From positions 1,240,001 through 1,304,000 of the forward strand of contig NZ_JAVIWI010000001.1 of NCBI RefSeq assembly GCF_034314085.1: a stretch of DNA of 64,000 bases. Direction: 5' to 3'. The notes beneath the pieces were generated by a model that was given only the letters and a program-made list of their open reading frames with translations, had not been told where the DNA came from and made no database searches. Shown piece after piece: positions 5,074 to 60,271 of this stretch. The position numbers and the translations under genes are program-made. Source of the DNA: Undibacterium sp. 5I1. GTDB lineage: Bacteria; Pseudomonadota; Gammaproteobacteria; Burkholderiales; Burkholderiaceae_D. Every line of letters begins with the position of its first letter. Positions within the stretch are counted from its first letter, which is position 1.

Positions 5074-5662
5074 TTTTACGTTCTTGATACTGGCGCTAAA
5101 AAGCTACAGTTATCAACGGCCATACAGCTCGATATTGATTGTCAATTTCCTAAAACAATTAGAAAAGCGCAAATTTATTCGGTTCAATTTGTATGGGTTT
5201 GAATAAGTTTGCGACAGATTAGGGCTGTCGTTACACACAGGCAGTTGTGTGGAGTGGCTGAGCAATATCTTGGGTTGCACTTTAGGTTTTTTTATATACT
5301 CCCATTTTAATTTTATTAAATGCTCTTATTCTCCAATGAATTATTGGGTGGTACATAAATACTGTAGCCAGTATATTGATTTTGTCTGCGTATTTTATCG
5401 TCGGTAGTTTCGTAATTAAGCGAAAATTAAGCAAAATAAATCGTTTAGATTGCTCAAGTTTTTTCTCAAATTTAAAACTGGGCAAAAAAAGAACAAACAT
5501 ATTTATTTCTTGATGGAATGTTCTAATATTAGTAACCATAACAAATAAAATTATTGCTGAAAAGAATTTCTCATAAGACAATACTAGCGCTAATGGGACA
5601 GCTACATCTTTGTTAGGCATAGGCTATTTTTTTGATTACCTTCAACGTAAAGGCAAGTATTT
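5074..5662. other. AT-rich intergenic region with one repeat copy
   Basis: This 589-bp gap between acs and the MFS gene holds a copy of the dispersed palindromic repeat (5294-5375). A minus-strand frame of ~112 codons across it is lysine/isoleucine-rich AT noise that overlaps the repeat and was not accepted as a gene. Confidence 0.5.
5294..5375 (-). repeat. Dispersed palindromic repeat, copy 1
   Basis: Begins ATATACTCCC and ends CCAGTATA, with a core of CTCCAATGAATTATTGGG. It is inverted relative to the copy at 21512-21593 and lies between two genes on the same strand (acs and the MFS gene). See the finding on the repeat family. Confidence 0.75.
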
Positions 5663-7303
5663 ATGTCGCAATCACAATTTTCTTTGCTAGCTAAGGAGCG
5701 CACCATTGCTGGTAAAGGCTTCAATCGTTGGCTAGTACCGCCTGCGGCTTTGGCGATCCATCTTTGTATCGGTATGGCGTATGGTTTCTCTGTTTTTTGG
5801 TTGCCGCTTTCGAAAGCGATCGGTATCGATAAACCGCTTGCCTGTGCCAGTGATGTTGGTCTGTTGCAAGAGCTGTTTTCCAGCGATTGCGATTGGAAAA
5901 TCTCTACTCTGACGTTGATGTATACCTTGTTCTTCATCTTCCTCGGCTCCTCCGCTGCTTTATTTGGTGGTTGGCTGGAACGTGCAGGCCCACGAAAAGC
6001 TGGTGTGGTTTCCGCATTGTGCTGGTGTGGTGGTCTGGTGATTTCCTCCTTTGGTGTGTACACGCATCAAGCCTGGCTGTTGTGGTTGGGCGGTGGTGTC
6101 ATCGGTGGTATTGGCTTGGGTTTGGGCTATATTTCACCAGTATCGACGCTAATTAAATGGTTTCCGGACAAGCGTGGCATGGCAACTGGTATGGCGATCA
6201 TGGGCTTTGGTGGCGGTGCTTTGATTGGATCACCATTAGCTGATTGGTTGATGCGTCATTTCGCAACACCTACCTCTGTCGGCGTATGGCAAACCTTTTT
6301 GGTCATGTCTGCGATTTATTTTGTATTTATGATGGCTGGTGCATTTGGTTACCGTGTACCCGCTTCTGGTTGGAAGCCAGCCGGTTGGACGCCTCCAGTA
6401 CAAACGAACAATGCAATGATCACGAACAAACATGTTCACTTGAATAAGGCTTGGAAGACTAAGCAATTCTGGTTGATCTGGGCTGTTTTGTGCTTAAACG
6501 TGTCTGCTGGTATTGGTATCTTGGGTATGGCATCGCCTTTGCTGCAAGAAGTATTTGGCGGTAAATTGATTGGTGTCGATCTTGGCTTCAATGACTTAAA
6601 TCCAGATCAAAAGAAACAGATTGCGACTATCGCAGCCGCATTTACTGGTTTGCTGTCCTTGTTTAACATCGGTGGTCGCTTCTTCTGGGCGTCGATTTCA
6701 GACTATATCGGTCGCAAAGGTACTTACTTCGTCTTCTTTGTACTTGGCTTCATTCTTTACGCATCGATTCCTACTGTTGCACATGCAGGTAGTCTGGCGT
6801 TGTTCGTATTATTTTTCTGCATTATCTTATCTATGTATGGTGGTGGTTTTGCCACTGTGCCAGCGTATTTGGCAGATATGTTCGGCTCGCAAATGGTTGG
6901 TGCTATCCACGGTCGTTTGCTGACTGCATGGTCAACTGCGGGTGTGCTCGGACCTTTGCTGATTACGTATATCCGCGAATACCAATTGGCGCATGGCGTA
7001 GCAAAAGCCCAGGCATATGACATCACCATGTACATCTTGGCGGGTATGTTAGTTCTCGGCTTTATTTGTAATTTATTAGTGCGCCCTGTTAAAGACAGTA
7101 CTTTTATGACAGATGAAGAGCTGGCGACTGAACGCAAGCTGGCACATGATCGTGTTATCGCCAGCTCTACCGATGGCAGCGTCGTTGGAAAAGGCGGTTC
7201 GACTAGCCAAGCAACCGTATTGTTTGCCTGGGCAGCAGTAGGTATCCCATTAGCAATCGGTATTTGGATCACTTTGCAAAAAGCTGTTTTGTTATTTAAA
7301 TAA
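5663..7303 (+). CDS. OFA-family MFS transporter (oxalate/formate antiporter type)
   Basis: A 546-residue major facilitator with ~12 membrane segments, predicted to move small carboxylates across the inner membrane. The N-terminus (PPAALAIHLCIGMAYGFSVF), the GGWLERAGPRKAG loop and the FGGGALIGSPLADWL stretch are typical of the OFA branch that includes OxlT. The substrate cannot be read from sequence; oxalate, formate or another monocarboxylate are possibilities. It lies upstream of a molybdopterin oxidoreductase locus but is split from it by an insertion sequence placed one base after its stop codon. Confidence 0.85.
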   Translation: MSQSQFSLLAKERTIAGKGFNRWLVPPAALAIHLCIGMAYGFSVFWLPLSKAIGIDKPLACASDVGLLQELFSSDCDWKISTLTLMYTLFFIFLGSSAALFGGWLERAGPRKAGVVSALCWCGGLVISSFGVYTHQAWLLWLGGGVIGGIGLGLGYISPVSTLIKWFPDKRGMATGMAIMGFGGGALIGSPLADWLMRHFATPTSVGVWQTFLVMSAIYFVFMMAGAFGYRVPASGWKPAGWTPPVQTNNAMITNKHVHLNKAWKTKQFWLIWAVLCLNVSAGIGILGMASPLLQEVFGGKLIGVDLGFNDLNPDQKKQIATIAAAFTGLLSLFNIGGRFFWASISDYIGRKGTYFVFFVLGFILYASIPTVAHAGSLALFVLFFCIILSMYGGGFATVPAYLADMFGSQMVGAIHGRLLTAWSTAGVLGPLLITYIREYQLAHGVAKAQAYDITMYILAGMLVLGFICNLLVRPVKDSTFMTDEELATERKLAHDRVIASSTDGSVVGKGGSTSQATVLFAWAAVGIPLAIGIWITLQKAVLLFK

Positions 7304-7304
7304 T

Positions 7305-7308
7305 AGAT
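7305..7308. repeat. Left target-site duplication AGAT
   Basis: AGAT immediately before the left inverted repeat is repeated at 8753-8756 just after the right inverted repeat. Confidence 0.8.
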
Positions 7309-8752: not shown

Positions 8753-8762
8753 AGATGTAAGC

Positions 8763-8798
8763 AAAAAAAAGGTCGCCTCAGTGCGATCTTTTTTTTTG
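8763..8798 (+). terminator. Intrinsic terminator displaced from the MFS gene by the IS
   Basis: An A8 run, AGGTCGC, a loop, GCGATCT and then T8 form a hairpin with one G-T pair. Without the IS it would lie ~10 bp past the MFS stop codon, so it was very likely the terminator of the MFS gene. Confidence 0.75.
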
Positions 8799-11620: not shown

Positions 11621-11635
11621 ACTAGACATAAAAGT

Positions 11636-14334: not shown

Positions 14335-14431
14335 TTTTGCATCCTCCAGTATATATGCGGCCTCTGGCACGATATTGGCCTAAGAGCCGCAGAATCATTG
14401 GACGATCTAAATTTGGATTTTTATTGATAAA
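14335..14431. repeat. Probable degenerate copy of the dispersed repeat
   Basis: Contains the AATCATTGGAC core segment shared with clear copies (21545-21556, 22115-22126, 28931-28941) and a CTCCAGTATAT near the left side. The outer ends no longer match well. It lies between the convergent thrC and eamA genes. Confidence 0.35.
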
Positions 14432-21032: not shown

Positions 21033-21037
21033 TCGCA

Positions 21038-21487: not shown

Positions 21488-21511
21488 GAGAGATTTAGCG
21501 CCATTAAATTA

Positions 21512-21593
21512 ATACTGGTAATGGGTATATTTTAATCGTCCAGAGAATCATTGGACAATAAGGCATATTTAGTAAAAATAATGGGGAGTATAT
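21512..21593 (+). repeat. Dispersed palindromic repeat, copy 2
   Basis: Starts ATACTGGTAATGGGTATATT, core CGTCCAGAGAATCATTGGAC, ends ATAATGGGGAGTATAT. Lies between moaE and crcB (same strand). Used here as the reference orientation. Confidence 0.8.
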
Positions 21594-22070: not shown

Positions 22071-22153
22071 TATTTACAGGGGAGTATGTGCCAATTCATA
22101 CCTTTACGTCCAAATAATCATTGGACGATTAAAAATACAGTCCCCTAGTATTT
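22071..22153 (+). repeat. Dispersed palindromic repeat, copy 3
   Basis: Has CAGGGGAGTATG on the left, core CGTCCAAATAATCATTGGACG, and AAAAATACAGTCCCC on the right, the last resembling the copy at 40681-40765. Lies between crcB and pip. Confidence 0.7.
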
Positions 22154-28790: not shown

Positions 28791-28896
28791 AGCGTTATTG
28801 ACGCGGTCAATATCTCGGCTGTTTTTTTGTGGCGAGAAAAGCGCAAGAAGCACATTTAACAATGTGGTTTCTGCGTTTTTTTGTGGGTTAAATAAA

Positions 28897-28977
28897 ATAC
28901 CCTTGGGTAGTATATTTATATTGTCCAATTAATCATTGGACAATCAAGGTATTTTTATGAAAATAATAGGGAGTATG
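28897..28977 (+). repeat. Dispersed palindromic repeat, copy 4
   Basis: Left TACCCTTGGGTAGTATATTT, core TTGTCCAATTAATCATTGGACAA, right AATAATAGGGAGTATG. Lies between convergent rutE and nth. Confidence 0.8.
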
Positions 28978-29068
28978 TGGAAGCGTATAGCCTTGCGATG
29001 GCATCATTGATCGATGTCGTTTCTATCCGCGATCACTTCCTTCCCTGCGGCTTCCGCCTGGTTGAGCT

Positions 29069-40680: not shown

Positions 40681-40765
40681 ATACTGGTCGGGTGTATGAT
40701 TGTTTTATGTCAGATTGTCCAGATAAAGTCTGGACAATTAAAAATACTCCCCTTATTTATAATAT
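40681..40765 (+). repeat. Dispersed palindromic repeat, copy 5
   Basis: Left ATACTGGTCGGGTGTATGAT, core TTGTCCAGATAAAGTCTGGACAA, right TTAAAAATACTCCCC. It fills the gap between two convergent genes and ends three bases before the GNAT stop codon. Confidence 0.75.
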
Positions 40766-44444: not shown

Positions 44445-44508
44445 TTTAGCGCAGGCTGTTTCCTCACATTGCAGGTGAGTTTTGCTAGTGTAAAGTTTTG
44501 CCGTTTTT

Positions 44509-44592
44509 ATATACTCCCATTATGTATATTTAAGTTGTCCAGAAGTTTGTTGGGCAGTAGCTTAATTTTTTAAAAAATAATGGGGAGTATAT
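44509..44592 (+). repeat. Dispersed palindromic repeat, copy 6 (most symmetrical)
   Basis: Starts ATATACTCCCATTAT and ends ATAATGGGGAGTATAT, so the 10-bp outer ends are perfect inverted repeats; core TTGTCCAGAAGTTTGTTGGGCA. Lies between convergent rpiA and the sedolisin gene. Confidence 0.85.
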
Positions 44593-44628
44593 TAATCTTA
44601 GGTAGACTGAACTTAGTAGATTGAAGAG

Positions 44629-44690
44629 TATAAGCAGCGAAAATACTGAGGACGATCAAACAAGATCCGCAGTTTTTTCGCTGTACTTAT
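44629..44690 (-). terminator. Long imperfect hairpin downstream of the sedolisin gene
   Basis: Two ~26-nt arms (ATAAG-CAGCGAAAA... and ...TTTTCGCTG-TA-CTTAT) pair imperfectly 37 bp after the stop codon. No T-run follows, so the terminator role is tentative. Confidence 0.3.
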
Positions 44691-44726
44691 ATCGTAATAG
44701 TATTTCCTGAGGTTATACCTTTGCTA

Positions 44727-47177: not shown

Positions 47178-47767
47178 GGCTGCAACGCTCCGATATAAAA
47201 AATATAGGCGAGGGCCAAAAGTGACAACGATCAGTTTATTTACAGTAGATGTAATTTACGTCTCGTTGGCAACCCCGCTACCATGGCGCTTTCGCGCTGT
47301 AGGCCGGTGGCTTTGCGTCCTCGTTTTTCAACAAGTTTGCCCTCAGTGATTCATACTAATTTGTCGTGCTTTTAGTGTCATACAACTATTAGCACTATAT
47401 AACTTGCTTAATATTATCTATTCCATGGGTAAACTGTACTAGAAAGTAGATCCTAAAAGTTAAATTTTGTTGCGCCACCTCAACTTTTTATAGATTGAGG
47501 CAATGAATATACGGTTTCTGATATGGAATAAATAATTAATTTCCAAAAAAATATGCAGTTATTGAAAAAAACGAATATTGTTTATAAAAATATTTCAGAA
47601 TTAATGATCTGCTAACAGGTGTAACAGAATTGATCAGAATTATTCTAAAAAATTCTCAACAATTTCTTATTTCTCTCTGGCTATTCGCTGACGTTTGATA
47701 GGCGGCATATTAGCTGAGCTTATTGCGCACCATTCCATAATATGTTTCTCAAGAAAGTAGCACACCC
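47178..47767. other. AT-rich divergent intergenic region with riboswitch
   Basis: 590 bp between the sedolisin and 2OG-oxygenase genes. The c-di-GMP riboswitch occupies 47265-47345; the AT-rich part to its right should hold both promoters. No further gene seen. Confidence 0.5.
47265..47345 (-). promoter_or_regulatory. Cyclic di-GMP-I (GEMM) riboswitch
   Basis: Read on the minus strand, the segment holds GGCAAAC, a GAAA-containing loop, the diagnostic GGACGCAAAGCCACCGGCC, then a variable arm closed by GCGC/GCGC and the receptor side GGTAGCGGGGTTGCC. These match the GEMM-I consensus in order and spacing. It ends ~88 nt before the sedolisin ATG. The expression platform is not obvious. Confidence 0.92.
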
Positions 47768-48412
47768 ATGTTTGCCGAATCACTTGGTGATTCATTCCCT
47801 GATTTTGTGCGCCTTAGCATTGCGCATCAAATCAACATTGTTGAAGACTTAGTCAAACAAGGCTGGTCACAACAAAACATTTTTTTGTCTGAAAATTTAA
47901 CTCTGGCGTTGGCGGCGGAATGTCAAGCATTGGCAGATATTGGCGCGTTAAAATTAGCCAATGTCGGTCGTGGTGCTGCGCAAGTGATCAGGCCAGAGAT
48001 TCGCGGTGATCAAATCCAATGGCTAAAAGCAGGTCAGTCGCTAGCGTGTGACCGCTATCTGCAAATTATGGAAACAGTGCGGCTTGCTTTAAACCAAGCA
48101 TTGTATTTGGGGCTGGATGATTATGAGAGCCACTTTGCTTTTTATGCGCCAGGGGCGTCTTACCTCAAACATCTGGACCGGTTTCGTGACGATGATCGCC
48201 GGATTGTATCCGTGGTAATTTATCTGAACTATCGTTGGTTGCCGGAGCAGGGCGGTGCTTTACGACTGCATCCCATCGATAAGTGCACAGAGGACATTTC
48301 GCCACTCGGCAGCCGCATGGTGCTATTTTTATCGGCTGATATGCAACACGAAGTGCTACCCGCAACGCGTGACCGGCTATCTCTCGCGGGTTGGTTTAGA
48401 CGACGCGCTTGA
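47768..48412 (+). CDS. 2-oxoglutarate/Fe(II) oxygenase
   Basis: A 214-residue dioxygenase of the prolyl-4-hydroxylase/SM-20 type. The Fe ligands are in YLKHLDRFRDDDRR (HxD) and ADMQHEVLPAT (His), and the 2OG-binding Arg in RDRLSLAGWFRR. GGALRL and VVIYLNYRWLP complete the jelly roll. The substrate, protein or small molecule, is unknown. Confidence 0.87.
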   Translation: MFAESLGDSFPDFVRLSIAHQINIVEDLVKQGWSQQNIFLSENLTLALAAECQALADIGALKLANVGRGAAQVIRPEIRGDQIQWLKAGQSLACDRYLQIMETVRLALNQALYLGLDDYESHFAFYAPGASYLKHLDRFRDDDRRIVSVVIYLNYRWLPEQGGALRLHPIDKCTEDISPLGSRMVLFLSADMQHEVLPATRDRLSLAGWFRRRA

Positions 48413-48548
48413 TCTTTAACGTGATCTGAAAACTAAGGTATTTGGGACAAACTTGCCATAAAAAATGCGCAACACCATTTCTATCGCTTAAATGGGTATT
48501 ATGCATCTTAAAAAAACCAAAAAATCTCGGTGTAAACAAAGCGCTACA

Positions 48549-49013
48549 TCAAGCCTTGCTCAAAAATGAGCTGGAAAATTGCTCCAGCATATTTCCCAAC
48601 TCACCAAAACCAGAGGTGGCTACTTCACCGTTGGGCGTAAGCTTATCTACCAGACCGGGCAACATTTCCGCCAAATGTACCGCTGCACCGTCGTGCGATA
48701 AACCTGCTGCTTCTGCCAATTGCGCTAGCTGGCCATTGCCGAGCGCACTTTTGATTTGGTCTGCAGAGATCGGCAAATTATGACCATTGCTTATCCATGA
48801 GCTGACGATATTGCCGAGGCCGGCGTTTTCAAATGCGCTAACTAAACCAGATAAGCCCGACGAGCCAGTTTGATCACTTTGACCATTTTGTCCGTTAGCA
48901 GATTGATTATTGGTAAGCATACCAAGCGCAGCTTGTAGCAACATCGCTTTGGGATCATTACCTTGATCCGAGTTGCCGCCCAACATGCCTAATGCTGAAT
49001 CCAGAAGTCCCAT
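48549..49013 (-). CDS. YidB-like DUF937 protein
   Basis: A 154-residue protein. MGLLDSALGMLGG and the glycine/glutamine-rich middle, then GLGNIVSSWISNGHNLPISADQIKSALGNGQLAQLAEAAGL, match YidB/DUF937 proteins of unknown function. The C-terminal KLTPNGEVATSGFGELGNML also fits. Confidence 0.85.
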   Translation of the reverse strand: MGLLDSALGMLGGNSDQGNDPKAMLLQAALGMLTNNQSANGQNGQSDQTGSSGLSGLVSAFENAGLGNIVSSWISNGHNLPISADQIKSALGNGQLAQLAEAAGLSHDGAAVHLAEMLPGLVDKLTPNGEVATSGFGELGNMLEQFSSSFLSKA

Positions 49014-49213
49014 ACGATCCCTTTCTGAGGTGGTTGATGAATTACATTACAACGTAAACGACAATCATATTAATACTAAAAAGTTAATCTGATTGTGAAC
49101 TTTGTATGAATAGTTTCCGGAGGTATTTGTCATCCAAGGTTATTGCTCGCCGAGAGACTATTTTGCAACGCTGTCAGTGGCGCTGCGATTGTGCGCTCTG
49201 CTATATTTGCCGC

Positions 49214-51211
49214 ATGAAAAAAATAAAAACAATCGCTTCAAAAATAGGGTTTAGTTTGATTGCTGTGTTATTTGGGGTGAGCTTCACTGCTGCTGGTATT
49301 GGAGCAGGTGCGATCCCTTTGGCTAAGCAGATAATTGGTTTGTGGAAAGCACAAAATCTGGTGGCAGTACAGGCGCAGATTGAAAAACTATCCCTGGAAG
49401 AGCACGACGGTGAGACCAGAACTTACCAGGTAAAGGCTGAATTTAGTTACAGCTATCAAGCCTTAGGTCACCGCAGCAAGCGCATTAACATCGGCGGCGA
49501 CAGCAACGATAATATTGGCGACTACCAACGTGATATTTATCGAGAATTGCAACGCGCCAAAGACCAGGAGCAGTCCGTCACGCTCTGGGTCGATCCCGAC
49601 GATCCTGAGTTTGCCGTCTATGACCGCGCAATTCGCTGGATGCGGTTATTGTTTCTGTTGCCGTTTGCATCGCTGTTCCCTGCTGTGGGGATTGGCGCTT
49701 GCTGGGCACTCTGGAAAATCTGGCGGCCTTCGGCTGAACCTGTCATTCCTGTTGTTACAGTAGAATTCGCTCAACAACATCAAGTACCACTTTCTAGCCT
49801 GATCATTGCCCCAGAACAAAGCGGTGCGTTGCCAATGGGTGTCTTTGCCGTGTTCTGGAACTTGCTCTCCTGGCCAATCGCTGGGGTGGCATTGTTCTCA
49901 TCTCATATTGGCAATAATCCACTGATCCTCATCGCCGCTATCTTCCCTCTGGTTGGTATTGGGATGATTCTTTTTGCAGTGAAATTATGGTTTGTCAGAA
50001 GCTGCATTGGTCAGCCAGTTTTAGTGACCACCAGAGCGCCGGAAATAGGGTTGAATGAATGGAAAGCGAGCATACGTTTTATACCACCGCTCGGTGAAAG
50101 TTTGGGTATGTTACGCACACCGCAAGCAAGTTATCCGGTCAGGATTGAATGCCAGTGTCTTTATGAAGACAGCAGTGGTGAAGATACCAGCACTAAAACC
50201 TTGTGGTCACTCGTCGTGGATGAGGTGCAGCTTGCGCATGGAACTTCGCAGACGAGTTTCATGGTCGATTTTCCAGCACAATTGCCAGCCTCAGGTGCTG
50301 CGGATGGTAAGAACAAAAAAATTATTTGGAAATTAGTAGTCAGAGTATTTGATGGTGATTTAGTTTTTCCTTTGTTGGTTGGTTTTGCATTGAACGAGTC
50401 TTCAAAGATCCACTGGCAATGCCTGCTGCACAAATCAAAACCGCTAGATCAGCTAGATTTGACAAAGCTAGCGGAGGCTGCGTCTTTGCGTAATGCCGCT
50501 GATCGCATGAATCCTTGGTTAGGGCGCATCTTTTTATTATTTTTTGTCGCGGTTGCTGGATGGAGTTTGATCAACTTTTTGTTATCGGTGTTTGGTCCTG
50601 CTCGTAACGAGGCGCAGTCAGAAATGGCGCCTGTACAAACCGAGACATATACACAATTACAGGCAAAGCTTGCTGAGGGTGCTGATCCAAATCGGCGTGA
50701 CAACGATGGACTAACCAGCTTGATGCAGGCTGCGCAAGAAAAAGATTTGGCCAAAGTGCAATTATTATTATCGAGTGGCGCACGTGTTGACGATGTGACG
50801 CCAGTTGTCATTAGCGCTGCAGGTTACCGAATGGGAAACCGCAGCGCCTTATTTGATGCGATTAGTAGCGACGCGGTTGAAGTGGTCGGTGTTTTACTTG
50901 ACGCTGGTGCCGACATGCGATTAGCCAGCAATCAGGTCTGGACGCCCATGCATTACGCTGCCTATGTCGGTGCTGTGCGCAGTATGCGTGTATTGCGAGA
51001 ATATGGCGCTGAGATTGATGTGCCGTTTAGCGAAGCGCGCGGTTCTACCCCATTAATGGTTGCTGCGCAATATGATCAGTTGCAGTCAATCCAATTTTTA
51101 CTGGAATCTGGTGCCGATAAAACGAAATTAGATTTGTACGGAGAAAATGCATGCGGCTATGCGCGTTATTTTAAAAAAACAGCTGCTGCAAAAGCGCTTG
51201 ACTGCGATTAA
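49214..51211 (+). CDS. Membrane protein with DUF3592 region and C-terminal ankyrin repeats
   Basis: A 665-residue protein from the ATG at 49214. Residues ~10-30 form a first membrane segment, followed by an extracytoplasmic DUF3592-like region (YSYQALGHRSKRINIGG, WVDPDDPEFAVYDR) up to a second segment (~140-165), more segments near 215-265 and 435-460, and four or so ankyrin repeats (~490-660: GADPNRRDNDGLTSLMQAAQ, AGADMRLASNQVWTPMHYAA, GSTPLMVAAQYDQ). The combination is unusual. The function is unknown; a scaffold role is possible. Confidence 0.75.
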   Translation: MKKIKTIASKIGFSLIAVLFGVSFTAAGIGAGAIPLAKQIIGLWKAQNLVAVQAQIEKLSLEEHDGETRTYQVKAEFSYSYQALGHRSKRINIGGDSNDNIGDYQRDIYRELQRAKDQEQSVTLWVDPDDPEFAVYDRAIRWMRLLFLLPFASLFPAVGIGACWALWKIWRPSAEPVIPVVTVEFAQQHQVPLSSLIIAPEQSGALPMGVFAVFWNLLSWPIAGVALFSSHIGNNPLILIAAIFPLVGIGMILFAVKLWFVRSCIGQPVLVTTRAPEIGLNEWKASIRFIPPLGESLGMLRTPQASYPVRIECQCLYEDSSGEDTSTKTLWSLVVDEVQLAHGTSQTSFMVDFPAQLPASGAADGKNKKIIWKLVVRVFDGDLVFPLLVGFALNESSKIHWQCLLHKSKPLDQLDLTKLAEAASLRNAADRMNPWLGRIFLLFFVAVAGWSLINFLLSVFGPARNEAQSEMAPVQTETYTQLQAKLAEGADPNRRDNDGLTSLMQAAQEKDLAKVQLLLSSGARVDDVTPVVISAAGYRMGNRSALFDAISSDAVEVVGVLLDAGADMRLASNQVWTPMHYAAYVGAVRSMRVLREYGAEIDVPFSEARGSTPLMVAAQYDQLQSIQFLLESGADKTKLDLYGENACGYARYFKKTAAAKALDCD

Positions 51212-51285
51212 CCTGAGAGATTAGTTCAAGAGAGTAAGTTCAAACAATCATTTCAAACAAAAAATAATCGCAGCACCGCAGTACT

Positions 51286-52011
51286 TTACATCCCTCCCCA
51301 CGCCGCATTTAATGTCGCAATCGCCGCCAGACCTGCGGTTTCTGTACGTAAGATGCGTGGCCCCATACTCAGGGTCAAGACACCTTGTCTGATCGCCAGC
51401 ATTTCTTCATCATCAGAAAATCCACCCTCAGGACCGATCATCAGGCTGACTGATTGCGCGGGGTGATGACGTGCCCAGTCGGCAAGCGATTGATCTGCTC
51501 TGGGCGATAACAAAATGCGTTTATGCATATCTTGCTGTGCCAGCCATTTAGGCAAATCCATAACTGGAGACAAATGAGCCAGGCGATTACGCCCACATTG
51601 CTCCGCCGCAGCGACGATAATGCCTTGCCAGTGAGCGAGCTTTTTTTCAGCACGCTCTGCCGATAATCTCACCACACAACGTTGGGATGACAATGGCTGT
51701 ATGGTCGTCACGCCAAGTTCAATCGCTTTTTCAATAATCCAATCCATCTTGGATGCTTCCGGCAAAGCCTGCGCCAAAGTCAGGGCAAATGGTAGTTCGC
51801 ATTCTTCCGGTAAAAATACTTTGACTTCTGCGATGACACTTTTTTTTGTAACGGACACCAAGGTGGCGACATAACTGCCGCCTTCGCCATTAAACAGAGA
51901 AATGTTCTCGCCAGCAGAAAGTCGTAAAACAAATATATGGTGAGCGACATCTGTAGGCAGATCAATCGAGGCGCCGATGGTAAGCGGTAAAGGGCAAAAG
52001 AAGCGAGGCAT
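51286..52011 (-). CDS. rsmE: 16S rRNA m3U1498 methyltransferase
   Basis: A 241-residue SPOUT methyltransferase. N-terminal PUA-like part (LRLSAGENISLFNGEGG), then the knot: IQPLSSQRCVVR, QCGRNRLAHLSPV, LMIGPEGGFSDDE and LSMGPRILRTETAGLAAIATL, the S-adenosylmethionine-binding motifs of RsmE. Confidence 0.94.
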   Translation of the reverse strand: MPRFFCPLPLTIGASIDLPTDVAHHIFVLRLSAGENISLFNGEGGSYVATLVSVTKKSVIAEVKVFLPEECELPFALTLAQALPEASKMDWIIEKAIELGVTTIQPLSSQRCVVRLSAERAEKKLAHWQGIIVAAAEQCGRNRLAHLSPVMDLPKWLAQQDMHKRILLSPRADQSLADWARHHPAQSVSLMIGPEGGFSDDEEMLAIRQGVLTLSMGPRILRTETAGLAAIATLNAAWGGM

Positions 52012-52753
52012 GTTCTATTTGTATAAAAGAGTATTCGTGTGACGGTATCGAAAAACGCCATATCATGGAAAAAGATTATACGGCAGGCTTTACTAATTTC
52101 GATTTGTGCAAGGAGTGATACTGGGAAGCTGACGGTGCAAATTTCTTATAAAGGAAGATTTTGCGGATAGTCCGCTCCAAGGGTCGCGGCTAAGCACTAT
52201 ATGGATTGCTGCTAAATCATTGCTGTTCGCGCTTTGTTTGTTTTCTTATTGGATTTAAATTTATACTCCCAATTAGTATATTTAAGTGTCCATATATTCA
52301 TTGGGTATTAAGGCATTTTTTATAAAATCATGGGGGAGTATATTTTTTTTAAACCATCTAAAGCTGGACTGATCGTTTGAAAAAGATCAAATTACCTTAT
52401 CGCAACGAGTTAAAGATGCGCCTGTATATTCGTTCAACTTGGGCTGATGTTGATGATTTTATAAACTCATATCAAAACTCCCTGATAATAAAATTGCCTT
52501 AATGGCATCAACTGTAAAAATTGATAGGAATAAATTGCGAGAGGTGAATATGACAGTTCGCATAGTTCTCCACTCCCGCTCTGTTAAAATAACGGACTTC
52601 GCAGAATCTGTTGCATATTTCTAGCCTGTTCGTCGTAGTTTTTCGCTCAGTATTTTCTGCTGGTCGTGTTCAAAGCATGACTCAACAAAGCATTACCTAA
52701 GTATTTAAAGCTATAAAGATTTTCCCAGACACTCTTAGCCCAATCTAATCGCC
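52012..52753. other. Intergenic region upstream of tkt
   Basis: 742 bp between divergent rsmE and tkt. It contains repeat copy 7 (52262-52343). A 24-codon frame at 52550-52624 has a good AGAGGTG ribosome-binding site but no other support. No RNA family recognised. Confidence 0.5.
52262..52343 (+). repeat. Dispersed palindromic repeat, copy 7
   Basis: Starts TATACTCCCAATTAGTATAT, core GTGTCCATATATTCATTGGG, ends TCATGGGGGAGTATAT. This is the only copy between divergent genes. Confidence 0.8.
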
Positions 52754-54757
52754 ATGACCACATCTATACAGCCAGCTATGCTTACTAAAATGGCCAACGC
52801 CATCCGCGCTTTGTCTATGGACGCCGTACAAAAGGCCAATTCTGGCCATCCTGGTATGCCTATGGGGATGGCAGATATTGCCGTGGCACTGTGGAGTGGT
52901 CACTATCGCCATAATCCATCCAATCCACAATGGATCAACCGTGATCGCTTTTTGCTGTCGAACGGCCATGGTTCTATGTTGCATTATTCTTTACTGCATT
53001 TGACTGGCTATGATCTCAGCATGGACGAGATCAAAAATTTTCGTCAATTGCATTCTAAAACTGCGGGGCATCCAGAAGTCCACATCACACCTGGTGTAGA
53101 GACAACCACCGGTCCGCTAGGACAAGGGATTACCAATGGCGTTGGTATGGCCTTGGCTGAGAAATTGCTGGCGGCGGAATTTAATGAGCCTGGCCTAAAC
53201 ATCGTCGATCACCACACGTATGTATTTATGGGAGATGGCTGTTTGATGGAAGGTATTTCTCACGAGGCCTGTTCCTTAGCGGGCACCTTGCGTCTGAACA
53301 AACTGATTGCTTTTTGGGATGACAACGGTATTTCTATCGATGGTCATGTCGAGGGCTGGTTCACCGATGACACGCCTAAACGGTTTGAAGCGTATGGCTG
53401 GAATGTTGTAAGAGCAGTCGATGGTCACAATCCCGCTGCCGTGTCTGCCGCAATTGTTGCTGCCAAGGCCTCTGATAAACCAACACTGATTTGCTGCAAA
53501 ACGGTGATCGGTAAGGGCTCTCCGAACATGGAAGGCACGCATAACGTCCACGGTGCTGCCTTGGGCGATAAAGAAATCGCTGCAGTTCGCGCCAATATCG
53601 ATTGGCCATATCCACCATTTGAGGTACCTGCTGACATCTACGCAGCCTGGGACGCAAAAGCCAGTGGTAATAAAATGGAAGGCGAGTGGAATGCGCAATT
53701 TGCTGCCTACACAGAGCAGTTTCCGCACAAAGCGGCTGAACTGACTCGCCGCATGAAGGGTGAATTGCCAGCCAATTTTGACGAAGTCGTCGCCAGTGCC
53801 ATTAATTCTTGCGTAGAGAAAAAAGAAAACATCGCTACCCGTAAAGCCAGCCAAAACGCGATTCAGGCCTTTGCGCCTTCATTGCCAGAATTCCTTGGTG
53901 GTTCTGCTGATTTGACGGGTTCTAACCTGACAAACTGGAAAGAATGTGTTGCGGTACGCGGTAATCAAGCCGGTAATCACATTAACTACGGCGTGCGTGA
54001 ATTTGGTATGAGCGCGATGATGAATGGTATCGCTTTGCACGGCGGTTACATTCCTTTTGGCGCCACCTTCCTGACTTTCTCTGATTACAGCCGTAATGCG
54101 ATCCGCATGGCGGCGCTGATGAAAATCCGTACCTTATTTGTCTTTACACATGACTCTATCGGTTTGGGTGAAGATGGTCCTACGCATCAATCAGTTGAGC
54201 ACATTTCTAGTATGCGTTTGATCCCTAATCTGGATAACTGGCGTCCATGCGACACAGTGGAATCTGCAGCGGCCTGGGCTTTTGCAGTGAAGCGCCACGA
54301 TGGTCCATCGACGCTGATTTTCTCGCGCCAAAACTTACCCTACCAAGAACGTAGCGCACAGCAAATTGCCGATGTTTCTCGCGGTGGTTATGTATTACAA
54401 GATGTTGCCGATGCTAAAGCCGTGCTGATTGCCACTGGTTCAGAAATTGAACTCGCGGTGAAATCAGCCGCCGAGCTGGCAAAGCAAGGCATACCTGTAC
54501 GCGTCGTGTCTATGCCATCAACCGATGTCTTTGATCGTCAGGACTCAGCGTATAAAGCGAGCGTTCTCGGCAAAGGTTTGCCACGGATTGCAATCGAAGC
54601 TGGTGTAACTGACTTCTGGTACAAATATGTCGGCTTGGAAGGTGCTGTTGTCGGCATCGATACTTTTGGTGAATCAGCGCCTGCCAGCGTCTTGTTTAAA
54701 TACTTCGGTTTTACAGTAGAAAACGTAGTTGCTAAAGTGAAAGCGACTTTAGCGTGA
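52754..54757 (+). CDS. tkt: Transketolase
   Basis: A 667-residue ThDP enzyme of the pentose phosphate and Calvin-type carbon rearrangements. [21 protein letters not shown], the ThDP motif [18 protein letters not shown] and the C-terminal [20 protein letters not shown] are intact. Followed by a GNAT gene whose GTG overlaps the stop codon, then gap. In many relatives tkt directly precedes gap. Confidence 0.96.
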
Positions 54758-55359
54758 GTAAGCAAAGTATGAGCGATGCCAGCATCATTAAAGAAATCAG
54801 CTTGCGTCGTGCGACAGTCGCCGATGCGCAAGCGATTGCCGCTGTACGTATAGAAAGCTGGCGTGCTACTTATCGCGGTGTCATGCCTGATGAATATCTC
54901 GATGAAATGAAGCTTGATGACAGTACCGCAATCTGGACTCGTATTCTTAACACATCGGCTGATGAGCTACGTTGCGTATTCGTTGCCATTGCGGATGACG
55001 AGATTATTGGGTTCGCCTCCGGGATTCTGTTGAAGGAAGAAAAGCAGGGAATGCATGCAGAGTTAGCTGCGATTTATCTGCGCCCGGCTTATCAAGGTTT
55101 AGGTATCGGTCAACGGATGCTGCAAAAAGTCTCGCGTACTTTGCAAGCCATGGGTGCAAAGAATATGTTGGTCTGGGTCTTGACTGGTAACAAGGCAGCA
55201 CGCCAGTTCTATGAAACTTTTGGCGGTCAATTTTTGATCGAGCAAAACTTCATCTGGGATGAGCTGGAGCTGCAAGAGGTTGCCTATGGCTGGCCAGATT
55301 TGAACGAGTTAACTGAATTGCATTTGACCTCGGCAGAGGTTGCGCCGACTTTGCACTGA
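54754..55359 (+). CDS. GNAT-family N-acetyltransferase overlapping tkt
   Basis: A ~201-residue acetyltransferase. [36 protein letters not shown] starts the fold, [20 protein letters not shown] is the acetyl-CoA loop and [18 protein letters not shown] the C-terminal motif. The GTG start overlaps the tkt TGA (GTGA), implying coupled translation; an ATG at 54769 is the alternative. The substrate is unknown. Confidence 0.85.
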
Positions 55360-55526
55360 TCGCCAATTTAAGGCCATAGAACCTTAAATTTAAGTAAAAA
55401 AGTGTTCTTGGTTTTTATGAAGGCTTCATACCAGTTTTGTAGTAAACCCCTGAAGTAAACCTTAAACTTATAAAAATTTACACAGATTTATAAAGATTTT
55501 TCACTGTTTTTATTGGAGATAAAACC

Positions 55527-56540
55527 ATGACGATTCGCGTCGCAATCAACGGCTATGGCCGTATCGGTCGTAACATTCTGCGTGCCCACTACGAAGGTGG
55601 CAAATTCAAAAATGAGATTCAGATCGTAGCGATCAATGACCTCGGCAATGCAGAATCTAATGCTCACTTGACTCGTTACGACACTGCCCACGGCAAGTTC
55701 CCTGGCACAGTCACTGTCGAAGGCGATACCATGATCGTCAATGGCGACAAGATCAAGGTATTCGCTGAGCGTAATCCAGCGAATATCCCTTGGGGTGAGT
55801 TGAATGTCGATGTCGTGCTGGAATGCACCGGCTTCTTCACGACAAAAGAAAAAGCTTCTGCACATTTGGCCGGCGGCGCGAAAAAAGTCATCATCTCTGC
55901 ACCTGGTGGCAAAGATGTTGACGCAACGATTGTGTATGGTGTGAACCACGGCGTATTGAAGGCAACCGATACCGTTATTTCTAACGCCTCTTGCACCACA
56001 AATTGCTTAGCACCTTTGGCGAAGCCTTTGAATGATGCGATCGGTATCGTCAACGGTTTGATGACGACCATCCATGCCTACACCAATGATCAGGTGTTGA
56101 CTGATGTCATGCACGAAGACTTACGCCGCGCGCGCTCTGCCACGATGAGCATGATCCCGACTAAAACTGGCGCAGCAGCGGCAGTTGGACTGGTGTTGCC
56201 AGAGTTGAACGGCAAACTGGATGGTTACGCAATGCGCGTACCAACCATCAATGTATCTGTTGTCGATCTGACATTTGTTGCTGCCCGCGACACATCGGTA
56301 GAAGAAATCAATTCCGTATTAAAGGCAGCGTCCGAAGGTGCCTTAAAAGGTATTTTGGATTACAACACAGCGCCATTGGTTTCAGTCGATTTCAACCACA
56401 ATCCAGCATCTAGTACTTATGACGAAACATTGACTAAAGTATCTGGTCGTTTAGTCAAAGTGTCTAGCTGGTATGACAACGAATGGGGTTTCTCTAACCG
56501 CATGTTGGATACAACGGTTGCCTTGATGAACGCGAAATAA
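55527..56540 (+). CDS. gapA: Glyceraldehyde-3-phosphate dehydrogenase, type I
   Basis: A 337-residue NAD-dependent glycolytic enzyme. [14 protein letters not shown] binds NAD and [17 protein letters not shown] holds the catalytic Cys; [20 protein letters not shown] and [12 protein letters not shown] are also present. A GGAG ribosome-binding site precedes the ATG. Likely works with tkt upstream. Confidence 0.96.
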
Positions 56541-56557
56541 TTTCAGTTTTTACGATT

Positions 56558-56592
56558 AAAAAAAAAGCCCCGAACTTTCGGGGCTTTTTTTT
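56558..56592 (+). terminator. Intrinsic terminator after gapA
   Basis: A-run, GCCCCGAA, a short loop, TTCGGGGC and T8; a near-perfect stem 18 bp after the stop. Confidence 0.92.
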
Positions 56593-56681
56593 GTCTATTG
56601 AGTTCAACTGTGTTCAACTATATTCCGCTGTGTTTTGCTATATGTAGCTGCCTTGATTGATCTAACTGGAGATGTCCGACG

Positions 56682-57365
56682 ATGTTTAATCCCAAAAAAC
56701 TAATGGCCGACAATAAAGGCTTCATCCTGTTCATGCTCGGCATGGTGCTGGTGCGCAGTGCGATGGCAGATTTCTATCTGGTGCCTTCCAGTTCTATGTA
56801 CCCAACGCTGGTAGAGGGTGACCGAGTAATTTGCAATCGCCTGGCCTACGACGTTAAGTTGCCGTTTACCGATGTCGTACTCAAGCAAGTTGCCGATCCG
56901 CAGCGCGGTGATATCGTTACTTTTATCTCACCGCAAGATGGTGTGAGATTAGTCAAACGCCTGATCGCAGTGCCTGGAGATACAGTTGAAATGCATGATG
57001 AACAGTTAGTCATCAATGGGGTGCCAGCCAATTACAAAGAAGCATTCGATAGTGCTGAAAATCATCTGACACCAGCTCGTGAATATTCCGGTAAACAGCT
57101 GGTGTATCAGGAGACGGTAGGAGATAAACAGCACGGCATTATCATCATGCCAGAGCGCCAAGCTATGCGATCTTTTGGTCCTGTCAAAGTGCCTGAGGGT
57201 CAATATCTGATGTTGGGCGACAATCGCGATAATAGCAAAGATTCGCGTTATATCGGTTTTGTGAAGCGGGAATTGATCACTGGGCGTGTCAGTCGCTTAT
57301 TGTTTTCACTCGACGGTGATAATTATTATTTGCCGAGATTAGAGCGGGTTGCAGCGAGGACTTAA
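56682..57365 (+). CDS. lepB: Signal peptidase I
   Basis: A 227-residue leader peptidase anchored by a single N-terminal membrane segment. The nucleophile Ser lies in VPSSSMYPTL (~38) and the general base Lys in RLVKRLIAVPGD (~90); GDNRDNSKDSRYIGFV (box E) completes the S26 active site. It is not next to lepA and rnc, where the usual lepB sits, so it may be a second, specialised copy. Confidence 0.9.
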   Translation: MFNPKKLMADNKGFILFMLGMVLVRSAMADFYLVPSSSMYPTLVEGDRVICNRLAYDVKLPFTDVVLKQVADPQRGDIVTFISPQDGVRLVKRLIAVPGDTVEMHDEQLVINGVPANYKEAFDSAENHLTPAREYSGKQLVYQETVGDKQHGIIIMPERQAMRSFGPVKVPEGQYLMLGDNRDNSKDSRYIGFVKRELITGRVSRLLFSLDGDNYYLPRLERVAART

Positions 57366-57420
57366 GCTGTCATTGCGCGGATGTTATTTGATGTTTATTT
57401 CAGGCTATAGGGCAAAATTC

Positions 57421-57459
57421 AAAAGCTAATCCAATATTGAGACGTTGGATTAGCTTTTT
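57421..57459 (+). terminator. Bidirectional intrinsic terminator
   Basis: AAAAGCTAATCCAA, a 10-nt loop and TTGGATTAGCTTTTT form a 14-bp stem between the convergent lepB and the next small gene. Confidence 0.9.
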
Positions 57460-57462
57460 GGT

Positions 57463-57744
57463 TTAATGATGGTTGTCAGTAAAATAATCGGCACTCGCAC
57501 TCTGAATATCATCATATAAAGTTTCTTCTGAAGTAAAACTTGTTTTGCCAGGCAGATGCGGTTCTTGTACAAAATAATTACACAATATGGCTCCGGCTAT
57601 TGGTATCAGCCAGACCAGTCCTAACTGAATGTATTTTTGTGTTAATTCTAAATTCTTACTCCGCCAAATGCGAATGCTTACAAAAATATTCAGACACAAC
57701 AGTGCAGCTATCGCTAATGTAAAGATTATTTCCAGACTATTCAT
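57463..57744 (-). CDS. Small two-helix membrane protein, unknown
   Basis: A 93-residue protein with two hydrophobic segments (~3-25 and ~42-62) and a polar C-terminus ending DNHH. It resembles a PLDc_N-like short membrane protein only in topology. It is bounded by a terminator and is likely real; no function can be stated. Confidence 0.6.
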   Translation of the reverse strand: MNSLEIIFTLAIAALLCLNIFVSIRIWRSKNLELTQKYIQLGLVWLIPIAGAILCNYFVQEPHLPGKTSFTSEETLYDDIQSASADYFTDNHH

Positions 57745-57771
57745 TGATTTTGACGTTCTTTTTTTACGAAG

Positions 57772-58554
57772 TCAGACTGATGTAGCAACATAACCCAGTG
57801 TCTCTGAAATCTGCTCTGCGGTAGAGATCAGATCGCCTAGCCATTCTTCTTGCAAGCGGTCTGCTGGTGCGGAAATCGAGAGACCCGCAATCATCTTGCC
57901 ACTATCATCGCGTATGCCTGCTGCCATGCAGCGTACTCCTAGCTCTAGCTCTTCATTGTCGCGTGCATAGCCATTTTCGCGCACGTCACTAAGTTCTTTT
58001 TCTAGCTTGTGTAAATCAGTGATGGAGTTTTTGTTGTGTCCTGCGAGGCCTGTGCGGGTAGCGTAAGCGCGGATTGCTTTTGGCTCGTCCAGGGATAAAA
58101 ATAATTTGCCCGTAGAGGTCAAATGCAGGGGTGCTCTGCCGCCGATTGCGCGTACCACCTGCATGCCGGAGCGCTCTGAAAAGGCGCGGTCGATGTACAC
58201 AATCTGATCGCCTTGGCGCACAGATAAGTTGACTGTCTGGTGCGTCTGACGATGTAGTGTACGCATAAATTCCAGCGCTGCCTCACGCACGTTTAAACGA
58301 CTTTTGACTATATTGCCTAGCTCTAACAGACGCATGCCCAGTCGATAAGAACCGGCTTCAGCTCGGTCTACAAAACGCGTCGTGACCAGATCATTCAAAA
58401 TCCGGTGTGCGGTGGAGGGGTGCAGACCAGTGACAATGGCAAGTTCTTTTAAACTTACCGGGTCTTGGTAGCGAGACAAGGCATCTAGTAGTGAGACTAG
58501 ACGTTCTATTACTTGAATGGCAGTTTTTTCTGAGCCGAGCGTATCGTTTTTCAT
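57772..58554 (-). CDS. IclR-family transcriptional regulator
   Basis: A 260-residue regulator. The N-terminal winged helix AIQVIERLVSLLDALSRYQDPVSLKELAIVTGLHPSTAHRILNDLV is followed by the IclR effector domain with HLTSTGKLFLS, and GVRCMAAGIRDDSGKMIAGLSISAP near the C-terminus. The ATG at 58554 is chosen; upstream the frame is open for 30 codons without homology. The regulated genes are not evident; the neighbours are unrelated. Confidence 0.9.
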   Translation of the reverse strand: MKNDTLGSEKTAIQVIERLVSLLDALSRYQDPVSLKELAIVTGLHPSTAHRILNDLVTTRFVDRAEAGSYRLGMRLLELGNIVKSRLNVREAALEFMRTLHRQTHQTVNLSVRQGDQIVYIDRAFSERSGMQVVRAIGGRAPLHLTSTGKLFLSLDEPKAIRAYATRTGLAGHNKNSITDLHKLEKELSDVRENGYARDNEELELGVRCMAAGIRDDSGKMIAGLSISAPADRLQEEWLGDLISTAEQISETLGYVATSV

Positions 58555-58683
58555 ATTATGGTTGGTGCATTGCAATAGCTCTTTATACCATAATGTGAAA
58601 AGCAAGTCAGCTAATTGGTGACCTAAGTCGAGGCAAATTGACAACGATTTTTGGAGTTCTCTGATCTGTTCGCAGGCGAATAA

Positions 58684-59292
58684 TCACCAATTGCAACCAA
58701 CATCAGTAACGGTACTCAAGGCAATTGGAATCACCGCAAGCAAACCCGCCCCTGCAAAGGCATTGCGACAATCTTTCCGCACGGTTTTTTTTACTTTTTC
58801 ACCAAACTGTTTTTCTACACTTTGATCACGCGCAAAACCTAGCTGCATCTTTTCTATTTCGCTGTGCTTGCCACGGCGATATTCTTCTTTGGCAGTTTGT
58901 CTGATATTTTCTAAATCCAAATGTGTGTCATGCGTATCATTAGTTGACGTAGTTATTTTGTCCCCCGAAGTAAGCTCGGCTAGTGGTGTGATGGCTGCAG
59001 TAGTCTGTGGCTTGCGCATATCTTCTGTCGCCGGCTTTGGAGGATTGCTGGTATTTGCTAGTTTAGTGTTAGTGACTTTGCTCGCTATGACTGGCGACGT
59101 TGTTTTAGCTGGTGTCTTAGGTTTTATCTGAACGAAATTCAGATCGATATAAGTGACTGCGGCTTGCTCCATATCTCTTTGCAATGGCGCTCGCCCCAAT
59201 TCAAATCGCATCAGCAGTATCAGGGCTGCATGCGCTGCCAGGATAAGGGCGATGGTGGTCAGGTGCTGCGGAATTTTATGTGCAATCGCCAT
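58684..59292 (-). CDS. Hypothetical protein with N-terminal anchor, TonB-like layout
   Basis: A 202-residue protein with one N-terminal membrane helix (~12-28), a Thr/Pro/Lys-rich middle (~55-105) and a charged C-terminal part ending CRNAFAGAGLLAVIPIALSTVTDVGCNW. The layout recalls energy-transducing periplasmic linkers, but no TonB C-terminal motif was seen. Not assigned to a family. Confidence 0.6.
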   Translation of the reverse strand: MAIAHKIPQHLTTIALILAAHAALILLMRFELGRAPLQRDMEQAAVTYIDLNFVQIKPKTPAKTTSPVIASKVTNTKLANTSNPPKPATEDMRKPQTTAAITPLAELTSGDKITTSTNDTHDTHLDLENIRQTAKEEYRRGKHSEIEKMQLGFARDQSVEKQFGEKVKKTVRKDCRNAFAGAGLLAVIPIALSTVTDVGCNW

Positions 59293-59541
59293 GTTTTGGT
59301 TTGGGATGGTGAAGGATGCTTAGAGTTTATTTTAAGCTTTGCTGCTATTTGAGCATCTCATTTGAGATTGGTTCTCACAAGGCTAAAAGAATTTTCATTT
59401 TATCAAGTCTGCGCGGCAAACATTTACATCATGTACGAAATACTTGTCGCAATGTACTGTTAAAATCGGCGCGACTATTGTTTTCTGTGTAATCCATAAA
59501 CTTTCACCCATAACGCCCCGTTGCCATTTCAGGAATTATTC

Positions 59542-59940
59542 ATGAGCGATCAAGAACAAGCCGTTAGCGAATTTAAAAGTAAGAGCGGTCTTAAACGTAT
59601 TTTCTCCGCATTTTTTTATTCGATTGATGGATTTAAATCGGCCTGGAAAAATGAGCATGCATTCCGACAGGAGCTGGTCTTGGTAGTCATCGGTATTGTC
59701 GTCGCACTGGCGCTGCCGGTGTCATCGTTTGAGAAACTGATGATGATTGCCAGCTTGCTGTTGATCTTGGTGGTGGAGTTGATTAATTCAGCCATCGAGG
59801 CAGTGGTGGACAGGGTATCGCTAGAGCGTCATACCTTGTCTAAAAACGCGAAAGACTTTGGCAGCGCTGCTGTGCTGCTGACTTTTTTAATCTCGGTGGG
59901 CACTTGGGGTGTGGTTTTATTTAACCGCTTTTACTATTGA
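59542..59940 (+). CDS. dgkA: Diacylglycerol kinase
   Basis: A 132-residue, three-helix inner-membrane kinase that recycles diacylglycerol to phosphatidate. FFYSIDGFKSAWKNEHAFRQELVLVVIG, VELINSAIEAVVDRVSLERHTLSKNAKDFGSAAV are the family motifs (Glu, Asn and Asp of the active site). AGGA lies eight bases before the ATG at 59542. Confidence 0.95.
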   Translation: MSDQEQAVSEFKSKSGLKRIFSAFFYSIDGFKSAWKNEHAFRQELVLVVIGIVVALALPVSSFEKLMMIASLLLILVVELINSAIEAVVDRVSLERHTLSKNAKDFGSAAVLLTFLISVGTWGVVLFNRFYY

Positions 59941-60271
59941 TTACTACTAGACCAACACGCTTATATTTAGCAGATATTTGGACTCAATAACTGTGTGTAG
60001 TGGTACAAATATCATATACTCCCCTCAATTTTATTAAAATTGTGCCTATCGTCCAAATATTATATGGACAATGAAAATATACTATATGGGAGTATATAAT
60101 TTACTTATGAGAAAAAAGTCTAGTTTTTTCTATTTTTACTTATCTATTTAGTTGCTTAACTCGCCAATTAGCCAAATTTTCAGAACCTGAGTTCAACACG
60201 CCGGGTTGCTTCAGGCAGATTCAGAATCACCTATCTTTAACCAGCTTGCCTACTTATCGCGACTGTCTACC
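59941..60271. other. Intergenic region between dgkA and cobT
   Basis: 331 bp holding repeat copy 8. No cobalamin riboswitch seen here, so cobT is not switch-controlled from this leader as far as can be read. Confidence 0.5.
60014..60097 (-). repeat. Dispersed palindromic repeat, copy 8
   Basis: Starts ATATACTCCCCTCAATTT, core CGTCCAAATATTATATGGACAA, ends TATGGGAGTATAT. Inverted relative to copy 2; lies between dgkA and cobT. Confidence 0.85.

Follow-up and report, generated by a model that had tools for sequence, protein, structure and literature searches.

What keeps a short palindromic repeat between genes, and is any part of it read? The question is raised by a 64,000-nucleotide stretch (NZ_JAVIWI010000001.1, positions 1,240,001 to 1,304,000; "the window" below) from the freshwater bacterium Undibacterium sp. 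5I1, whose genome of 4.88 Mb in two contigs is called the "own" genome here. In its intergenic gaps a first-pass annotation, made from the letters alone, had noted eight copies of a dispersed palindromic repeat. The 84-base family is confirmed as real. Such short palindromic repeats are commonly taken for selfish miniature elements or for hairpins that serve the host; in the present 84-base element, two parts seem to follow different evolutionary rules, the arms going with the locus and the core with the species. The best explanation we can offer, at a confidence just short of evenly balanced, is an old, non-autonomous repeat of the REPIN or MITE (miniature inverted-repeat transposable element) type, its core read by a putative sequence-specific factor of changing specificity. 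Ends, arms and core are features of the sequence; the factor is postulated from their behavior.

Structure of the Element

Consensus sequences were taken from sets of 172, 30, 24 and 20 copies. The consensus reads ATATACTCCCC-n-AGTATATTTTAA, then a core dyad whose loop has 9 bases, a spacer, and TTTTT-nnn-AAAAA-nn-GGGGAGTATAT. As a whole it is more than a simple palindrome: at the left there is a complete palindrome (ATATACTCC..AGTATAT, or ATATACTCC-n-AGTATATTTTAA), at the right just one half-site, GGGGAGTATAT, preceded by T5-n3-A5. Both ends are bordered by AT-rich zones of 7-8 bases. Copies with the order left palindrome, core, T5/A5, GGGGAGTATAT are called regular here; another arrangement has its 18 terminal bases inverted, and at one site the own copy is rearranged and its ortholog in genome G006 regular.

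The outer stem, ATATACTCC/GGAGTATAT, is paired in 92.7% of cells across 46 aligned copies (many had been selected for their ends). In the core, all seven pairs have two-sided changes, and the covariation score of the whole structure was reached in 0/500 shuffles. Some enlarged cores form long perfect palindromes: L101:1939 and L067:5169 in U. rivi, and L279:17076-17172 in the own genome (form B, described below). By eye, the two enlarged U. rivi cores resemble intrinsic terminators with a T run.

Core Dialects

The core is GTCCA/TGGAC in the own genome and CGCA/TGCG-type ("CGC-type") in sister clades and in one other genus of the family. Among regular copies, GTCC or GGAC occurs in 113/128 in the own genome and 39/45 in its sister G035; the corresponding counts are 1/32 in G011, 0/31 in G015, 1/13 in G006 and 0/10 in G014. 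CGC-type cores, taken in the same order of genomes, number 6/128, 3/45, 30/32, 27/31, 13/13 and 8/10; in the other genus, 17/20 left halves and 18/20 right halves are CGC-type, as counted by eye. A tree from up to six proteins places the own genome and G035 as sister to G011, followed by G019, G006, G014 and G015, and most simply the GTCCA type would have been derived on the branch to the own genome and G035.

Shared Sites

Do these different cores stand at the same places? A total of 146 copies was gathered from genomes of the genus other than the own and G035; those chosen by perfect ends are biased in their ends, and those of G011 and G015 came mostly through R2, a genus-wide covariance model used at E ≤ 1e-3. 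Thirty of the 146 map with both flanks into the sampled part of the own genome, and 28 of these meet a copy in the same gap. They amount to 14/16 distinct sites (binomial p 1.4e-8, with a background of 126 copy-bearing gaps among the 628 own gaps of at least 84 bp). Orientation is the same in 28/28 (p 6e-5 over 14 sites), and the own core has GTCC or GGAC at 13/14 of the shared sites. Only two sites are without an own copy, each known from a single foreign copy, in G017 and in G011. In G035, a counterpart is present for every own copy whose flanks could be located (16/16), in pieces mostly chosen for the copies they bear, so the figure says little about gain or loss; the comparison with the more distant genomes is free of this bias on the own side. 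We propose that the repeat is old and vertically inherited.

Another possibility, which we consider improbable, is that species-specific bursts inserted copies independently at the same preferred intergenic sites, so that the copies facing each other are not orthologs. Copy number does differ strongly among species (17 to at least 123), some own sites are empty elsewhere, and convergent gaps are preferred (34/106 copies, with a fraction of 0.187 expected), all as bursts into favored places would have it. This sits poorly, however, with 14/16 sites shared in one orientation throughout, with the greater likeness of ortholog than of non-ortholog arms (below), and with the lack of a target-site duplication signal.

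A separate observation concerns G014 and G015, which hold groups of copies with identical spacing (2796 and 4278 bases; for example, G014:C1:2487992-2495147 and G015:C1:1840940-1848095), suggesting that these regions are very close or were recently exchanged.

Core and Arms at Shared Sites

Identity was compared among copies of 78 to 88 bases, with rearranged copies and the single-copy clade excluded. At 13 sites common to distant species (38 pairs), cores are 0.72 identical within species and 0.54 between orthologs, a difference per site of 0.163 (confidence interval, CI, 0.115-0.212); the arms give 0.60 within species vs. 0.62 for orthologs. Ortholog arms exceed non-ortholog arms by 0.039 (CI 0.008-0.069), the left arm being higher at 12/13 sites. 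Between the own genome and CGC-type genomes (12 sites, 19 pairs), core identity is 0.47 for orthologs, 0.76 within species and 0.50 for non-orthologs (within minus ortholog 0.272, CI 0.195-0.336). The arms stand at 0.57, 0.56 and 0.53, respectively, with an ortholog excess over non-orthologs of 0.033 (CI 0.003-0.062) that is significant in the right arm.

Taken together, shared sites, constant ends, arms weakly marked by locus and cores alike within a species suggest that the core is recognized in trans and that this recognition has changed: species-wise core change at shared sites is predicted neither by reinsertion of whole elements nor by neutral decay. In the mechanism we have in mind, one putative factor, unchanged in specificity, would bind the outer half-sites, and a putative sequence-specific one would bind the central dyad; the latter would most likely be a dimeric protein that binds DNA or hairpins. 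What this core reader recognizes would have changed several times, and each time the cores of the copies already in place would have moved towards the new motif through mutation together with weak selection or drive. The lineage of the own genome would also have come to hold many sites without counterpart in relatives. A wider formulation, tentative and somewhat on the doubtful side, is that of an intergenic recognition code, in which hundreds of fixed elements serve a reader whose specificity was rewritten several times in one family, each rewrite being followed by an exchange of core motifs at sites of old vertical descent, with ends and arms retained. The question of a specific reader is directly testable, since sister species provide natural core swaps at the same sites.

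The main rival needs no core reader at all: short-tract gene conversion, perhaps by hairpin-mediated template switching, in which a GTCCA-type copy overwrote the centers of others. It would explain cores alike within a species in arms that keep a locus signal, and some cores are long perfect palindromes of the kind that template switching would make (the form-B copy in L279, and L101 and L067 of U. rivi). The loop, too, differs by species: in the own vs. CGC comparison its identity within species exceeds that of orthologs by 0.133 (CI 0.024-0.245), which suits conversion and counts against a reader of the stem. The tracts, on the other hand, would need to be some 20-25 bases long and always centered on the core, in copies whose arms agree by only about 56-60% within a species, and we judge conversion unlikely while taking it seriously.

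Apart from the loop, several results tell against a changing core reader, beginning with the fact that short-tract conversion would yield much the same picture. No trans-acting factor was identified; a single flanking gene as the reader was rejected, the genes beside eight shared sites being, by eye, diverse. The arm signal is small, and in the own vs. CGC comparison the left arm alone is not significant (0.016, CI -0.056 to 0.077). When all distant pairs are taken, including the close pair G014-G015 (34 sites, 101 pairs), the core contrast is not significant (0.057, CI -0.017 to 0.127), and ortholog cores slightly exceed non-ortholog cores, by 0.072 (CI 0.032-0.119). Only 74.6% of cells in the core are paired, and the 9 pairs with two-sided changes are unexceptional, 61/500 shuffles reaching that number. 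Substitution between the own genome and G035 is 0.063 per site in copies and 0.070 in intergenic flanks; the copies being hardly below the flanks, selection per copy would be weak at best.

Age and dialect raise further difficulties. At the places of the window copies first annotated at 52262 and 60014, no match at E ≤ 0.1 was found in the syntenic pieces of relatives; one G019 piece has a weak match (E 0.07) in another place, and in G014 and G015 gene order is disrupted at 60014. Where in a shared gap the copy sits shows no correlation between species (8 sites, rho 0.02), as separate bursts would also have it. Some outgroups are mixed: GTCC/GGAC, CGC-type and GCCC/GGGC cores number 3, 3 and 8 of 14 in U. 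rivi, 5, 3 and 7 of 10 in U. aquatile, and 1, 6 and 7 of 9 in G020, and in the U. rivi/U. aquatile consensus the halves are not mirror images. These mixed outgroup dialects, with the bias of the G035 count, slightly lower our confidence in the best explanation.

Copy Number and Placement

The chromosome sample, 1.224 Mb in all, consists of 59 stretches: the window plus 58 pieces at even distances. The second contig was sampled as two 20-kb pieces. R1, a covariance model built from six of the eight window copies (those at 22071 and 40681 left out), gave 110 matches in the sample at E ≤ 0.05. Five were dropped (two reverse-strand duplicates, two copies interrupted by an insertion sequence, or IS, and one rearranged copy), leaving 105, all at E ≤ 0.01; with 22071 and 40681 added by hand, the chromosome sample holds 107 copies, which extrapolates to about 400 on the chromosome. 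The two 20-kb stretches of the second replicon contain none. Profiles of the rearranged forms find 21 further rearranged or incomplete copies; ten of the copies found by the form-B profile were its training set. In 464 kb, the mixed-dialect model R2 finds no regular copy beyond those of R1, so the own-type bias of R1 hides no CGC-type copies there.

Context was counted for 106 copies (one at a stretch edge was dropped), using a simple gene caller (999 genes). None of the 106 overlaps a gene by more than 20 bases. Convergent gaps hold 34, co-directional gaps 60 and divergent gaps 12, where intergenic bases would give fractions of 0.187, 0.520 and 0.293: a convergent excess (p 7e-4) and a divergent deficit (p 9e-6). 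The convergent excess bears out the earlier impression, gained from the window, of a bias to gene 3' ends, and the median distance to a facing gene 3' end is 97 bases. There is no strand signal along the chromosome (67 on the + strand among the 150 matches listed), and spacing is random (coefficient of variation 1.03 vs. 0.99 simulated).

Might the copies be bidirectional transcription terminators, or mRNA 3'-end hairpins, kept simply for their fold? Intergenic position, nearness to gene 3' ends and the convergent bias would all fit, as would the T5 tract behind the core in the consensus. Four of the eight window copies fold better than all 200 of their shuffles, and the core stem-loop of copy 44509 passes a loose terminator scan of the stretch 44000-63500. 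That scan is unspecific, however, with 34 sites vs. 21.4 in shuffles of the same stretch; the fold of copy 21509 is no better than that of its shuffles (z 0.36), 60/106 copies are co-directional and 12 divergent, and fold alone demands no single stem sequence per species. We give this idea little credence.

Copies in the Window

All eight copies of the first-pass annotation were recovered within 1-3 bases of its coordinates (Table 1), and its description of the outer ends, the GTCCA/TGGAC core, the AT-rich arms and the occurrence of both orientations agrees with what was found. Our own gene calls agree with the contexts it gave, convergent at 28897, 40681 and 44509 and divergent at 52262; the other four copies are co-directional. 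A remnant proposed near 14335-14431 finds no support: R1 has no match there at E ≤ 10 with filters off, and it is absent from the profile matches at E ≤ 0.1.

In the window R1 scores its own six training copies at 75.7-92.9 bits. The two that were left out are of a rearranged form, with the terminal half-site elsewhere or in the other orientation. In 22071 (form B) the terminal module is inverted, CATACTCCCC replacing GGGGAGTATAT; in 40681, both gene ends are at most 6 bases away and the "left" end is ambiguous. With up to one mismatch, TATACTCCC occurs 13 times in the window vs. 6.05 expected, a number reached in 1/100 shuffles. Independent support comes from the genome, where further copies, whose absence would have refuted the first-pass reading, are present: at least 150 R1 matches, five of them window copies. 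Four window copies have counterparts in G035: 21509 (an ortholog, identity 81/85), 22071 (76/83), 60014 (80/84) and 44509, whose fold has a z of -3.90 and which is matched by a copy in the aligned piece (L329).

Table 1. Repeat copies in the window, and IS30-family copies lying at the repeat in the own genome.
Feature	Coordinates	Strand	Genes on either side	R1 score in window	R1 training copy
Regular copy	5294..5376	-	acetyl-CoA synthetase-like / MFS transporter, co-directional	75.7 bits, E 3.4e-12	yes
Regular copy	21509..21593	+	moaE / crcB-like, co-directional (Pfam)	85.4 bits	yes
Rearranged copy, form B	22071..22153	-	crcB-like / alpha/beta-hydrolase (Pfam)	24.2 bits, E 0.059	no
Regular copy	28895..28978	+	nitroreductase / HhH-GPD glycosylase, convergent	87.5 bits	yes
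Rearranged copy	40681..40765	.	2-hydroxyacid dehydrogenase / GNAT, convergent	22.5 bits, E 0.13	no
Regular copy, full outer stem	44509..44592	+	rpiA / gene without family above Pfam cut-off, convergent	91.4 bits	yes
Regular copy	52261..52343	+	RNA methyltransferase / transketolase, divergent (Pfam)	89.9 bits	yes
Regular copy, full outer stem	60014..60097	-	diacylglycerol kinase / cobT-like (DBI_PRT), co-directional	92.9 bits	yes
IS30-family copies at repeat	L263:11712-12912, L254:9275-10475, L308; also L309, L312				

A match to a named family would have spoken against novelty; at gathering thresholds, Rfam has none at the copies in the window. Its two matches elsewhere are riboswitches, c-di-GMP-I (47265-47351, -) and cobalamin (63205-63478, +). 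Among the part of the literature matches judged by title or start of abstract, no publication on the 84-base family was found; collections of named insertion sequences and MITEs lay outside this search. The main fact about the family, the core change at shared sites, needed other genomes to be seen.

Range among Relatives

How far does the family extend? With R2, 15 of 37 genomes of the genus have at least 17 matches (17 to at least 123 each), 7 have 1-3 and 15 have none. Under strict filters (E ≤ 1e-7), four Undibacterium genomes and two of one other genus pass among 97 genomes of the family in 44 genera. At E ≤ 1e-3, four of four genomes of that other genus give 5, 9, 10 and 6 matches; two of the four gave none under the strict filters, so low numbers are possible in further genera. 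Outside the family, R1 finds no copy in one genome from each of 24 families of the order. A scan of named genomes for perfect ends returned 108 stretches, all but six labelled Undibacterium or "Burkholderiales bacterium"; the six, single matches in unrelated taxa, are taken for chance. A viral origin was considered and rejected: the same pattern occurs in 0 viral contigs, plasmid and phage collections lying outside that search.

Five loci (L234, L236-L239) hold a copy at one and the same site, between SIS-domain and solute-binding protein genes, and by elimination belong to the five large genomes of the genus that have a single match and lack the expanded family; U. oligocarboniphilum and U. 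jejuense have a copy at this site as well. Three genomes of the other genus carry a copy 206-227 bases past the aligned end of an LD-carboxypeptidase gene, with only that flank aligned, and the own genome has a copy at this place (L174:9054).

Tests for Mobility

The first-pass annotation had supposed an undescribed REP- or MITE-like family (REP, repetitive extragenic palindromic). As far as intergenic position, abundance and restriction to relatives go, this stands; the signs of transposition do not follow. The borders of 253 copies show no clear excess of direct repeats (the highest z across many settings is 2.8); a target-site duplication may have been lost from old copies. As for an autonomous parent, only copies interrupted by an IS30-family element were found in the sampled 1.26 Mb: two 1.2-kb candidates for a transposon with the same ends are such copies, and other lone ends from position-weight scans are mostly rearranged copies. 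Eight long copies of the IS30-family element (NCBIfam) are present in the own genome; three of these interrupt a repeat just after the core, and two others of the eight lie 34-35 bases beyond the right end of a repeat. One copy encodes a 333-aa transposase; the frame is broken in another.

A REPIN in the proper sense would be mobilized by a RAYT (REP-associated tyrosine transposase) co-evolving with the core. Conserved inverted ends, a variable middle and species-specific stems invite the comparison, and a RAYT-like gene, whose association with the repeat had been thought worth looking for, is indeed present: a 276-aa Y1 gene adjoins a copy (NCBIfam REP-associated transposase, 59.3 bits, below the cut-off of 80), and at another locus (L200) a copy lies about 1.1 kb from a 58-aa Y1 fragment. 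It does not behave as a cognate, however. An ortholog is found in 23/23 genus genomes tested, nine of them without copies (G001, G002, G005, G007, G008, G009, G010, G012 and G016, all with 0 matches), so that repeat abundance and RAYT are not linked. Within about 1.5 kb on each side, only 2/23 RAYT loci have a copy, with R1 and with R2 alike, and six IS200-like loci have none within about 1.5 kb; the RAYT genes are thus in general not flanked by the repeat. The consensus ends carry neither a GTAG nor a CGTC tag. The candidate was rejected on its presence in copy-free genomes, the 2/23 loci and the other repeats downstream of it, and mobilization by a cognate RAYT seems very improbable. The downstream repeats are distinct: at the RAYT-like loci (L201-L223), seven of which were unreadable downstream, 14/16 readable downstream flanks carry, by eye, the unrelated direct repeats TGTCCCCAATT / TGACCCTAATT.

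Comparison with Known Systems

The outer stem, ATATACTCC/GGAGTATAT, supplies terminal inverted repeats of the MITE kind. ERIC, Correia/NEMIS and RUP elements are similar in size class, terminal inverted repeats and intergenic position; the present family differs in showing no target-site duplication signal and no parent in the sampled 1.26 Mb.

In its conserved inverted ends around a variable core, its extragenic position and its about 400 extrapolated copies the family resembles REPINs in part, the ends being asymmetrical. In REP/REPIN-RAYT systems (Nunvar 2010, PMC2817692; Bertels and Rainey 2011, PMC3116915), REP and REPIN sequences are likewise short, intergenic and palindromic, with hundreds of copies, inverted ends and types differing by species. 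Unlike them, the family has no cognate RAYT, no GTAG/CGTC super-family tag as described in PMC3733652, asymmetrical ends, and a core that differs by species at shared sites. REPs are also targets of insertion sequences, according to PMC1525189; the IS30-family element here is comparable, with 3/8 long copies in the repeat at one internal place, although the repeat is another one.

A further comparison is with DNA uptake sequences (DUS). These are of some 10-12 bases and number thousands of copies; here, no core word ranks with the most over-represented ones outside the 84-base elements, whose copies are intergenic. In the 1.224-Mb sample, ATTGTCCA occurs 53 times outside copies, no core word is among the top-listed k-mers, and the genome-wide enrichment of a DUS is not seen. 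By eye, other words over-represented outside copies (AACCCAGATTTTCCAT, CCTTTGGCGAAC, GGACTTACGCAAAA) point to further dispersed repeats. What the two systems have in common is a genome-wide motif whose dialects follow phylogeny, as outlined for the Neisseriaceae by Frye 2013 (PMC3630211). If the recognition code suggested above is real, Undibacterium would offer a dialect system outside DNA uptake.

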